Below, one piece after another: positions 21,867 through 29,820 of a stretch of DNA of 64,000 nucleotides; position 1 is the stretch's first letter; every line of letters starts with the position of its first letter. The notes beneath the pieces are model-generated. The model was not told the origin of the DNA and made no database searches. It was given only the letters and a program-made list of their open reading frames with translations. This stretch comes from Sporichthya brevicatena (GTDB taxonomy: Bacteria > Actinomycetota > Actinomycetes > Sporichthyales > Sporichthyaceae): assembly GCF_039525035.1 (NCBI RefSeq), contig NZ_BAAAHE010000049.1:17488-81487 (forward strand), given 5' to 3'. The position numbers and the translations under genes were made by a program.

Positions 21867-22208
21867 TCAGTACACCTCGACGACGACCGTGAGGTCGCCG
21901 AATCCGTCCGGCGCCGGAGCGCTCACCCGCGGAACCCGGAACCGGCGGCCGCTCGTCGTCCCCGGGGGAACCCGGAGTCGAACGACCGTGCCCGGTGCGG
22001 GCACCTTGATCAGAGCCCCGTGCGCGGCCTCGGTGGCCGAGATCGGCACCACGAGGACCAGTTCGGATCCCTGCCGTTCGAACCGCGGTGTCGGTGCGGT
22101 CTTCGGCACGGTCTTCAGCGCCGGCGCCGAGCCACCCGGGCGGGAGGCGGGCACGACGGGGCGAGGCTGGGACCAGTACTCCCGTTCTAGCCACGTCATC
22201 GCTGTCAT
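21867..22208 (-). CDS. Orphan DnaJ C-terminal substrate-binding domain protein
   Basis: 113 aa from ATG 22208 (GGAAGGAG 7 nt before it; ATG 22214 is too close to the site). Residues about 45-113 match DnaJ C-terminal domain II: VVPISATEAAHGALIKVPAPG..VRLRVPPGTTSGRRFRV...GDLTVVVEV. There is no J domain, Gly/Phe region or zinc finger, so it cannot stimulate DnaK alone. It may bind unfolded protein or dimerise with a full DnaJ. Confidence 0.7.
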   Translation of the reverse strand: MTAMTWLEREYWSQPRPVVPASRPGGSAPALKTVPKTAPTPRFERQGSELVLVVPISATEAAHGALIKVPAPGTVVRLRVPPGTTSGRRFRVPRVSAPAPDGFGDLTVVVEVY

Positions 22209-22489
22209 GCTCATACTCCTTCCCCCTCCGACCTCTCCGTACTCCAGCGTGACTCTCGAAGCGCACGGATGTGTTGCGTCGGAGTGAAATTCGTAAGACG
22301 GCCGGGCGGCGGATTGCTCCCTCGCCCGGATCTCCCCACCACGCCAACGAGTCGGCGCCGCCGATGGTGCCCGGCGACCAGCCCACTCCGAGCCCGGAGC
22401 GGTGTCAAGGCGTGGCCCCCGACGGAGCCGGAACGTCCCGGACATACGGGTAGATTCCCCGAGGCAGCTCGAGGAAGGTCCCGATCCGC

Positions 22490-26093: not shown

Positions 26094-26948
26094 TCAGCCG
26101 CCGAGGGTGTCGATGACGCCGTCGAGGTCGGAGAGCTGCTGGTCGAGCGAGGTCGCCGCGGGCGGCGGGATCTCGGTCCCCGGGTCGTCGCTGCCCCCGG
26201 TCGTCGCCACCACGGCACCGACCACGACACCGACCGCGAGCAGCGCCCCCACGACGGCGAGGACGACCTTCGCACTCGGCCGACGCCGGTAGCGGTCCTC
26301 GGGCGCCGGCGGCAGCTCGGTGGCCACCGGGATCGGCTGCGTCTGCGCCGCCGGGGCCGGGAGCGGGAACAGCGGTGGCGCCTCGGCGACCGCGCCGGCC
26401 TCGACCGGCGGGAACGGCGGTGCCGGAGCCGGGACCGGAGCAGCGGTCGGAGCCGACGGGGTCGGAGCGGGTGGGGTCGGAGCGGGTGGGATCGGAGCGG
26501 GTGGGGTCGGGGTGTCGTCGACGGTCCGGGCCCGCGGGACGGGGGCGCCGCCGAGCAGGGCGAGGGCCTCGCTCGCGGAGCCGGGGCGCAGGACGGGCTC
26601 GTCGGCGGTGAGCATGCCGATCAGGACCATCACCGGCGCGGAGGCGTCCGGGCCCGCGGCGGCGGCGAGCACCTGCCCGCAGGCGAGCAGGTCAGCACTG
26701 ACGTCGTCGCTGCTCGGAACCGCGTCCGGGGCGGCGCCGCGCTGGGTGCCGATCTTCGAGCTGTGGAGCCGACCCTCGCCGTCGAGGCGGACGGTGTCCG
26801 GACGCAGGTCCCGGTGCACCGTCCCCTTCGCGTGGAGCTGGGCGAGCATGTCCAGCAGGTCGCGGGCGAGCTGCGCCAGCTCGTCGCGGCCGAGCGGCCC
26901 GGACTGCAGGCGGTCGGCGAGCGTCCCGCCGAGGTGGTCAGTGCGCAC
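26094..26948 (-). CDS. Membrane-anchored pseudokinase
   Basis: 284 aa from GTG 26948 (GGGAGG upstream, start inside the preceding gene's end). It matches only the C-lobe of a Ser/Thr kinase: HRDLRPDT at 45-52 and a position-for-position match to the neighbouring kinase. The entire N-lobe with the ATP loop and VAIK Lys is missing; the catalytic Asn is T52 and the DFG motif is K65-I-G. A Pro-rich linker, one transmembrane helix (about 235-260) and a short outside tail follow. It cannot be an active kinase; a scaffolding or regulatory role is likely. Confidence 0.8.
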   Translation of the reverse strand: MRTDHLGGTLADRLQSGPLGRDELAQLARDLLDMLAQLHAKGTVHRDLRPDTVRLDGEGRLHSSKIGTQRGAAPDAVPSSDDVSADLLACGQVLAAAAGPDASAPVMVLIGMLTADEPVLRPGSASEALALLGGAPVPRARTVDDTPTPPAPIPPAPTPPAPTPSAPTAAPVPAPAPPFPPVEAGAVAEAPPLFPLPAPAAQTQPIPVATELPPAPEDRYRRRPSAKVVLAVVGALLAVGVVVGAVVATTGGSDDPGTEIPPPAATSLDQQLSDLDGVIDTLGG

Positions 26949-27582
26949 CGGAGCCTCCCGAACGCTTGTCGCGGTTCCGGTCCTTCTTCTTCTCGGCCTT
27001 CTGCTTCTCGGCCTTCTGCTTCTCGGCCTGCTTGCGCTCGGCCTCGGCCTTCTCGCGCTCGGCCTTCTCCTGAGCCTCACGCTCGGCGAGCCGCTTCTCG
27101 ATGTACTCGGCGAGGCGTTCGCGGAGCATCTCGCTGAAGCGGGCACCGGTCTCGCCCTGCAGGATCTGCTCCGGGCTGAGCGCCGGTGTGACCGGGGCGG
27201 CCACCGGAGCCGGTTCGGGCGTGGGCTCCGGCGTCGCGGTCGGTGTGGGCTCCGGCGTCGGGAGAACGACGTCGGCCATCACCTTCGTCGCGATGGCGTC
27301 GGCGTGCGCGAGCAGACCCGCGGCCTCGCTGTCGGTCAGCTCCCCGGCGTCGAGCAGGCGCTCAACCTCGGCGCGGAACGACTCCACCGCCGCGATCGCT
27401 GCGTCACGGTCGGAGCTGTCCGCGGCCGCACGCACCTGGGCGACCCGCTCGTGCAGCAGCTCCTGCGACGCCGCACCCAGCGTGGTCGACGCCCCGTCAC
27501 ACCCGGCCAACGCGAGCACGGCGAGGCCGGCCACCACCATCCGACCGCACGCAGGCAGCCGTCGTCCTTGTCGCGCAAGCAT
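26938..27582 (-). CDS. Lipoprotein with Lys/Glu-rich coiled tail (copy A)
   Basis: 214 aa from ATG 27582 behind GGAGGGGG. Lipobox Cys28 (LALAGC). A helical domain (about 35-105) is followed by a Pro/Thr linker, then a highly charged Lys/Glu/Gln coil (160-214). It is paralogous to the lipoprotein at 28826-29377 (matching FRAEVERLLDAGELTDSEAAGLLAHADAI and FRADVASLLERGQLTPDQAVALLGHADAV). Overlaps the pseudokinase by 11 nt. Confidence 0.78.
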   Translation of the reverse strand: MLARQGRRLPACGRMVVAGLAVLALAGCDGASTTLGAASQELLHERVAQVRAAADSSDRDAAIAAVESFRAEVERLLDAGELTDSEAAGLLAHADAIATKVMADVVLPTPEPTPTATPEPTPEPAPVAAPVTPALSPEQILQGETGARFSEMLRERLAEYIEKRLAEREAQEKAEREKAEAERKQAEKQKAEKQKAEKKKDRNRDKRSGGSGAH

Positions 27583-27737
27583 GCGCGTCCCCCTCCGTCG
27601 CCTACAACGCCCCCCGGCGCCGCCCGGATCCGGGCGTTCTGACGGTGTCTCTGCATCCACGAAAGCACGGGGAGTGGCCGTTCGTCCCGAGACTTGCGGC
27701 ATTCGAGTACATCGTGAAGGTCACTCAGAATCACCTC

Positions 27738-28829
27738 TCAGCGACGGACCGCTTCGATCGCCGCATCGAGTCCGTCGAACTGCTGCGACAGCGATCCCTG
27801 CGGCGGAACCGGGACATCGCGGGGCGCTTCCGACTTGCCGGACGTGAGCACGACACCGGCCGTGACCAGCACGACCGCGGCCGCCACGCCGGCGATCAGC
27901 ATTCGCGGCGGGGTGTGCGCGGAGGTCCGCACCGGCGGCGCCGAGCGGACCGGCAGGGTCGGGGCCGGCACCGGCGGCGCCGGCCGCGCCTGGGCCGGGA
28001 TGCTCGGCCGCGCCGCGACGATCGGTGACGTCGGTTCCCCGCCGGCGAGCAGGGCGAGCGCCTCGACGGCCGAGGACGGGCGGCGCGCGGGATCGTCCTG
28101 CGTGAGCCGGGCGATCAGCGCGTGCACCGGCGGCGAGACGTCGTCGCCCGCGCTCTCGGCGAGCAGCACCCCGCACGAGTACAGGTCGCTGCGGACGTCC
28201 GCCGGATCGCCGGCGAGCACCTCGGGCGCGAGGTAGCGCTGCGTGCCGACCAGCTCGCCGGTGCCCGTGACACGCGTCCCGTCCGCGAGCTGTGCGACGC
28301 CGAAGTCGGTGAGGCGGACGCGGCCGTCGGTGCCGAGCAGGACGTTGGCCGGTTTCAGGTCGCGGTGCAGCACCCCGGCGTCGTGCAGGTGGGTCAGCGT
28401 GCCGAGCAAGTCCCGCGCGAGCGCCGTGAGGTCCCAACGATCGAGGCCGCCGGTGGAGATGCGGTCGGCCAGCGTGCCGCCGGGGACGTACTCCATCGCC
28501 AGGTACGGCCGCTCGTCGCCGTCCTCCACGGAGGCGTCGAGCACGGAAGCATTGAGGATCCGCACCACGCCCGGATGGTCGAGCGAGGCGGCGAGCTTGG
28601 CCTCCCGCGCGAACCGCGCGACGAAGGCGGGGTCGAGCGCGAGGGAGTCCGAGAGGATCTTCAGCGCGACCTCACGCCCGGTGACCGTGTCGTCGGCGAC
28701 CCACACCGACGCCATCCCGCCCGTGCCGAGCAGGCGCAGCAGCAGGTAGCGGCCGTCACGGCCGAAGCGTTGACCGGCGACGACGTGCACCCAGCCGGTG
28801 CGGGTCAGCGGTTCGGCGCCGGCGGTCAT
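27738..28829 (-). CDS. Transmembrane Ser/Thr protein kinase (PknB-like)
   Basis: 363 aa. All kinase motifs are intact: glycine loop GTGGMAS (35-41), Lys57 (ALK), HRDLKPAN (155-162), DFG (175-177), APE (201-203). A Pro-rich linker leads to one transmembrane helix (about 310-330) and a short extracellular tail whose end (LSQQFDGLDAAIEAV) resembles the pseudokinase tail (LDQQLSDLDGVIDTL). No PASTA domains. Start ATG overlaps the upstream lipoprotein stop by 4 nt. The outside tail is too short to be a usual sensor, so the lipoprotein may be the sensor. Confidence 0.9.
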   Translation of the reverse strand: MTAGAEPLTRTGWVHVVAGQRFGRDGRYLLLRLLGTGGMASVWVADDTVTGREVALKILSDSLALDPAFVARFAREAKLAASLDHPGVVRILNASVLDASVEDGDERPYLAMEYVPGGTLADRISTGGLDRWDLTALARDLLGTLTHLHDAGVLHRDLKPANVLLGTDGRVRLTDFGVAQLADGTRVTGTGELVGTQRYLAPEVLAGDPADVRSDLYSCGVLLAESAGDDVSPPVHALIARLTQDDPARRPSSAVEALALLAGGEPTSPIVAARPSIPAQARPAPPVPAPTLPVRSAPPVRTSAHTPPRMLIAGVAAAVVLVTAGVVLTSGKSEAPRDVPVPPQGSLSQQFDGLDAAIEAVRR

Positions 28830-29377
28830 GCGCGCCCCCGCTCGTCACGGCCGCGATCCCGGTCCCGGTCCCGGCGGTGCTCGCGCGCCTGGTCCTTCAG
28901 CCGCTGGGCGATCCGCCCGCGCAGCAGCGTCCAGAACGAGGACAGCTCGTCCCGGTCCGGAGTCCGGGCGACGGTCTGTTTCCGTGGCTTCGGCTGCGCC
29001 TTCGTGACCACGTGGGGTCTCGGAGTCGGCGCGGGCGTCGGCGGCCGCACCTCCGACGAGATCTGCACCGCGACGGCGTCGGCGTGCCCGAGCAACGCCA
29101 CCGCCTGGTCGGGGGTGAGCTGCCCGCGCTCGAGCAGGCTCGCGACATCGGCGCGGAACTGCGCCAGCGCGGTGCGCGCCGCGTCGGGGTTGTCGAGCAC
29201 GGCCGCCGCGCGCATCGCGGCGACGCGTCCGTGCAGATCGGTGGCATCGGCGGCGGCCAGCCCGGTGGTGCCACCGGAGCAGCCGGCGAGCCCCAGCGGC
29301 ACGGCCAACGCCAGACCGGCCGCGACCCGGCGCCACGAGCGCGCGGACCACCTCGAACGTGCGGACACTACGGACAC
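28826..29377 (-). CDS. Lipoprotein with Arg-rich tail (copy B)
   Basis: 183 aa from GTG 29377 with GGGGGG 6-11 nt upstream (ATG 29401 would add eight residues but its site is too close). Lipobox Cys33 (LGLAGC). A helical domain, a Pro-rich linker and a strongly basic Arg/Asp tail follow. Paralog of copy A. Coupled to the kinase by an ATGA overlap, so kinase and lipoprotein are likely partners. Confidence 0.75.
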   Translation of the reverse strand: MSVVSARSRWSARSWRRVAAGLALAVPLGLAGCSGGTTGLAAADATDLHGRVAAMRAAAVLDNPDAARTALAQFRADVASLLERGQLTPDQAVALLGHADAVAVQISSEVRPPTPAPTPRPHVVTKAQPKPRKQTVARTPDRDELSSFWTLLRGRIAQRLKDQAREHRRDRDRDRGRDERGRA

Positions 29378-29547
29378 GGACTTCCCCCCAACCGAGCGCA
29401 TGCGCCCCCTTTCGCGCCCCCCGGCGCCGTCCTCCCCAGGACGTTCCGACGGTGTACCCGCTCGGTCGGGAGCCGAATCATCGGATTTGTCCACCGCCGA
29501 AAAGCTCGCCGGGCGCAGTGTCGGTCGGCGCGCCTAGGGTGGGCCGC

Positions 29548-29820
29548 ATGTGCCGCAACATCCGGACCCTGCACAACTTCGCGCCACCCGCGACGCCGGA
29601 GGAGATCGCCGCCGCCGCCCTGCAGTACGTGCGCAAGATCAGCGGGACGACCAAGCCCTCGGCCGCCAACGCCGCCGCGTTCGAGCGCGCGGTCGCTGCG
29701 GTGACCGCCGCCTCGGCCCAGTTGCTCGACGAACTCGTCACCTCCGCGCCGCCGAAGGACCGCGAGGTCGAGGCCGCCAAGGCCAGGGCGCGCGCCGCGG
29801 TGCGGTACGGCAACGCGTGA
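29548..29820 (+). CDS. DUF2277 protein
   Basis: 90 aa from ATG 29548, the conserved start (MCRNIRTLHNF). Nearly the whole sequence matches the family, ending PPKDREVEAAKARARAAVR. It has an N-terminal Cys and basic helices; function unknown. Its stop overlaps the RecQ start (GTGA, 29817-29820). Confidence 0.88.
   Translation: MCRNIRTLHNFAPPATPEEIAAAALQYVRKISGTTKPSAANAAAFERAVAAVTAASAQLLDELVTSAPPKDREVEAAKARARAAVRYGNA

Follow-up and report, generated by a model that had tools for sequence, protein, structure and literature searches.

An apparently tandem-duplicated lipoprotein-kinase module, found in a 64,000-nucleotide window of the 5.2-Mb genome of the actinobacterium Sporichthya brevicatena, contains one kinase copy, pseudokinase A, that lacks the whole N-lobe together with key catalytic residues and is under purifying selection. 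Our best reading is that pseudokinase A is a maintained, non-catalytic, lipoprotein-linked receptor or adaptor, of which we infer the partner and the output. The four genes of this soil bacterium are read from the minus strand in the order lipoB, kinB, lipoA, pseudokinase A, with an overlap of a few bases inside each lipoprotein-kinase pair (Table 1). The lipoB frame more probably begins at the ATG at 29401, which is homologous to the lipoA ATG at 27582, than at 29377, where a GTG offers a possible alternative start.

Table 1. Features of the locus and related loci (window positions; leader positions are the genome place minus an offset of 17487)
Feature	Position	Strand	Description	Genome place
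lipoB	28826..29401	-	LAGC lipobox lipoprotein; its domain is a paralogue of the three-helix domain predicted for lipoA; Pro-rich spacer, then Arg/Asp-rich end	
kinB	27738..28829	-	complete Ser/Thr kinase, TM helix, short C-terminal outside tail SLSQQFDGLDAAIEAVRR	
lipoA	26938..27582	-	lipoB paralogue; residues 37-104 predicted as three-helix domain and 137-208 as long charged helix, with a Pro-rich spacer between them	
pseudokinase A	26094..26948	-	starts with a GTG inside the end of lipoA; residues 1-134 are a C-lobe remnant, followed by Pro-rich linker, TM and tail SLDQQLSDLDGVIDTLGG	
leader upstream of lipoB	29417..29451	-	35-nt element	C49:46904-46938
leader upstream of lipoA	27610..27644	-	35-nt element	C49:45097-45131
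pair C			third lipoprotein-kinase pair, beside moeA-like gene	L042:7246-8803, L043:8197-9781, L041:1-1292
small conserved protein	29359-29820	+	MCRNIRTLHNF..., resembling DUF2277; between divergent lipoB and RecQ-like helicase; kept in all three Sporichthya genomes	
192-aa reading frame	21867-22445	-	end resembles DnaJ C-terminal domain; J domain not visible	

The start of pseudokinase A is a GTG at 26948 with a good ribosome-binding site (GGGAGG-5 nt-GTG). It overlaps the lipoA stop by 11 nt, and pseudokinase A is therefore probably translationally coupled to lipoA. The first residues, MRTDHLGGTLADRL, align with the hinge of kinB, EYVPGGTLADRI, and the whole N-lobe is missing. An in-frame upstream N-lobe is impossible, since lipoA itself is encoded there, and a sequencing or frameshift artefact was ruled out by the presence of the same start in three genomes. 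Within the C-lobe, HRDLKPAN and TDFG of kinB are replaced by HRDLRPDT and SKIG, while the TM helix and tail are retained. The alignment thus agrees with the initial annotation, which described a copy A without an N-lobe, with Asn changed to Thr in the catalytic loop and DFG to KIG, and with a TM helix and a similar outside tail. Additionally, the activation segment and the APE motif are deleted in the pseudokinase A of the window species, a loss that the initial annotation did not record.

Pseudokinase A and kinB are 44% identical in the alignment. A two-sequence BLASTP recovered the tail only, and a profile search linked the two proteins with an E value of 1e-36. The Pfam match of pseudokinase A covers profile positions 82-135 only and lies below the cut-off. 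Foldseek placed the predicted model among Ser/Thr kinases, including PknB and PknG, with modest confidence in the C-lobe (mean pLDDT 56, core about 65-85). A complete two-lobe fold is not present in any of the three species, each of which lacks the N-lobe. Kinase homology combined with loss of the catalytic Lys, the Asn and the DFG Asp identifies copy A as a pseudokinase, predicted to be without catalysis.

The sibling kinase is intact, as had been claimed for copy B. The kinB protein matches the Pkinase profile with an E value of 8.4e-42 and carries GTGGMASV, VALK, HRDLKPAN, DFG and GTQRYLAPE, the Gly loop, VAxK, HRDxxxxN, DFG and APE motifs of a Ser/Thr protein kinase. Its alphaF-alphaG region is shortened; about 27 residues around helix G are missing from kinB, from kinC and from kinase D, all with their other motifs intact. 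Pair C, to which kinC belongs, adjoins the moeA-like gene in all three Sporichthya genomes, and kinase D is a further kinase just upstream of a penicillin-binding-protein-like gene (L044; the kinase is also in L008).

An N-lobe-less, KIG-bearing frame follows lipoA in the window genome and in the two other Sporichthya genomes sampled, two of the three being close relatives and the third a metagenome-assembled genome (MAG). All three proteins begin at the hinge, directly after lipoA, and read SSKIG; the third-species contig ends inside the gene, before the tail. Absence or random decay in relatives, which the initial annotation had named as evidence against its proposal, is not what these genomes contain. 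The metagenome bin Sporichthya sp. MGR_bin378 belongs to the same genus as the window genome.

Between the two closest genomes, pseudokinase A had a whole-gene dN/dS of 0.197, compared with 0.127 (kinB), 0.141 (lipoA) and 0.077 (livF, a neighbouring gene). By segment of pseudokinase A, the ratio was lowest between hinge and KIG (0.041) and in the tail (0.079, with a single nonsynonymous change in 34 codons), and higher in the part of the C-lobe after KIG (0.43) and in the linker (0.32). The excess of silent changes was significant for the whole gene (Fisher p = 4e-12), for hinge to KIG (7e-8) and for the tail (0.014), and not significant for residues 68-134 alone. All indels in the gene between these two genomes are in frame. 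Pseudokinase A is under purifying selection, and pseudogene status was ruled out by dN/dS.

The proposal that a duplication was followed by conversion of one copy to a pseudokinase is supported by a tree of the kinase region, where A joins B at 98/99, the three A proteins sit together on a long branch and kinC falls outside A and B. The third-species A is sister to the other two A proteins, and therefore the A/B split precedes the three species. In the third species, lipoA and pseudokinase A are present and pair B is missing at the locus, the contig running uninterrupted through RecQ, the small conserved gene, lipoA and pseudokinase A; no kinB orthologue was found elsewhere in this assembly, a MAG of 94% completeness in which the locus contig has low coverage. 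Its pseudokinase A retains GSPNYLAPE, which is deleted in the other two, and has HCD for HRD, and therefore motif loss differed between lineages.

A 35-nt leader, CGTCNNNACGNCC-N(2-12)-GGNCGNCGCCGGGGGG, with a partly palindromic core, precedes lipoA or lipoB in every instance (two copies in each close genome, one in the third), and none was found elsewhere in the 13 genomes searched. Its bases lie in a different reading frame in the third species, indicating a nucleotide element rather than an N-terminal extension. This arrangement suggests shared control of A and B, possibly through a DNA operator or an RNA hairpin. The search for known RNA families found none in the leader; the only match, mir-718, lay elsewhere and below the gathering score. 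Predicted leader folds were not consistently more stable than shuffles, and therefore we claim only the duplicated sequence. With one leader in front of each lipoprotein gene, a precise loss of pair B from the third species could be explained by recombination between the two copies.

The two lipoproteins are 40% identical (E 6e-22), which, together with the Arg/Asp-rich end of one and the charged helix of the other, upholds the description of both kinases as following paralogous lipoproteins with charged ends. AlphaFold2 predicts the three-helix domain and the long charged helix of lipoA, and leaves the Pro-rich spacer disordered. A FIMAH domain (PF22888) was rejected for lipoA, at 18.3 bits against a cut-off of 24.8, and lipoB gave no match. 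The window genome holds no FIMAH domain above threshold, and in this class the family occurs mostly inside other large proteins. The best PDB matches to the lipoprotein fold were helical bundles like ribosomal protein bS20, at E 0.02 or worse, and homology was not accepted. Two further matches in the same genome (L072 and L073, frames of 569-603 aa) look like HNH-type proteins and were dropped.

Searching with a profile of the lipoproteins gave nine confident homologues, spread over two further families of the class; each of the nine overlaps or directly adjoins a kinase gene, with the kinase coming first. The linked kinases carry a short amphipathic tail soon after the TM helix, with the motif [LMF]xx[LIM][DEHQM]xx[VIA] near the C-terminus. 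It is present in 15 of 15 lipoprotein-linked kinases from three families, a set that includes closely related sequences; the same searches gave 38 kinases without such a link, and none of them carries it. The pattern was adjusted to the linked kinases once an initial form had missed five of them, so that the test lies in the 0 of 38 and not in the 15 of 15. The tail presumably packs on the lipoprotein helical domain.

Based on these results, we propose that the ancestral module comprised a lipoprotein outside and a single-pass kinase with an outside C-terminal amphipathic tail, and that it would have been duplicated in tandem in the ancestor of these Sporichthya genomes. From the copy A kinase the N-lobe has gone up to the hinge, together with the catalytic Asn and the metal-binding DFG, as the alignment shows, and the purifying selection that we measured maintains what is left. 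Evolution preserves a halved copy devoid of catalytic residues, and pseudokinase A is for this reason probably a non-enzymatic partner or decoy rather than junk. The lipoA helical domain most likely binds the tail of pseudokinase A, in the way that lipoB and lipoC would bind those of kinB and kinC, because the tail motif is found only in lipoprotein-linked kinases. There is perhaps an even chance that pseudokinase A, with its tail so engaged, tunes its active sibling kinases as a competitor or partner; its inner binding surface would be the most constrained part of the C-lobe remnant, from the hinge to the catalytic-loop region. More tentatively, pseudokinase A may represent a C-lobe-only, membrane-spanning type of pseudokinase that acts as a lipoprotein decoy or adaptor receptor to tune sibling Ser/Thr kinases with the same outside tail.

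The initial annotation had suggested a decoy or co-receptor. That role is still plausible, because A keeps the tail common to lipoprotein-linked kinases, whereas a version dedicated to kinB is weakened by the third species, which appears to retain A without pair B; this argues that A is not solely for kinB. All three species have kinC, which makes it a more general candidate partner than kinB, and the likelier one in the third species if A acts on a kinase there. Known kinase dimers form back-to-back through the N-lobe or front-to-front through alphaG. Both regions are missing in pseudokinase A, so a kinase-like heterodimer would need another surface.

A different possibility, which we consider rather improbable though worth weighing, is a scaffold, in which the C-lobe remnant and Pro-rich linker would bring a cytosolic protein to the membrane in a lipoA-controlled manner and leave kinase activity untouched. 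Both the persistence of pseudokinase A where kinB is missing and the concentration of constraint between hinge and KIG would fit such a role. TxxD sequences resemble FHA-binding sites, and TVDD follows the C-lobe in two species, but TxxD is missing in the third and no linked partner gene was found at the locus. A precedent is MviN, a pseudokinase that recruits FhaA once its tail has been phosphorylated (PMC12599244), but MviN has a full pseudokinase fold. It is unlikely that the TM helix and tail alone matter as a membrane partner of lipoA, the C-lobe being a passive plug; the strongly constrained tail and the conserved lipoprotein agree with such a stub, but constraint on the hinge-to-KIG segment is no weaker than on the tail. 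Very unlikely is a relic, a duplicate in decay that happens to retain its C-terminal half; the stepwise catalytic loss between lineages would suit it, but the selection test already disfavours it, indels are in frame only and A is kept in all three species, one of them lacking pair B.

The preferred reading, a non-catalytic receptor or adaptor, can be compared with described pseudokinases. Like pseudokinase A, the actinobacterial groups ActPs1-3, including MviN, have lost canonical kinase motifs (PMC12599244). A C-terminal TM helix is common in ActPs2 and ActPs3, and about 60% of ActPs1 lack helix G, a region also shortened in kinB, kinC and pseudokinase A. ActPs1 often carries a PQQ-type domain. 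The hallmark of ActPs3, the group of MviN, is an activation-loop deletion, which pseudokinase A shows in two species and not in the third. In contrast to pseudokinase A, none of ActPs1-3 is described without a whole N-lobe; the family-specific constraint of ActPs3/MviN lies on an N-lobe dimer interface, which pseudokinase A cannot have. Lipoprotein pairing is likewise not described for ActPs1-3, and the word lipoprotein is absent from that paper (PMC12599244). EssB/YukC is similarly a single-pass membrane pseudokinase with degraded motifs and a shortened activation loop (PMC12599244); unlike pseudokinase A it belongs to the type VII secretion machine, and no type VII secretion genes were seen next to the locus. 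A literature search under the phrase 'lacks the N-lobe' found no papers on N-lobe-less pseudokinases.

In the GlnH-GlnX-PknG system, a binding protein outside the cytoplasm is likewise proposed to control a Ser/Thr kinase on the other side of the membrane; GlnH binds solutes, and the TM protein, GlnX, is separate from the kinase (PMC6069109, PMC9769921). Here, in contrast, the TM helix is part of the kinase, and the lipoprotein domain is small and helical; the system is a functional analogy and not a relative.

It is not settled how bacterial Ser/Thr kinases receive signals from outside the cell. In three actinobacterial families, the pairing with a lipoprotein and the tail motif define a testable receptor type beyond PASTA kinases. 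The kinase/pseudokinase pair, with one outside tail motif and paralogous lipoproteins, provides a compact natural comparison in which a shared input side is joined to an active kinase in one copy and to a pseudokinase in the other.
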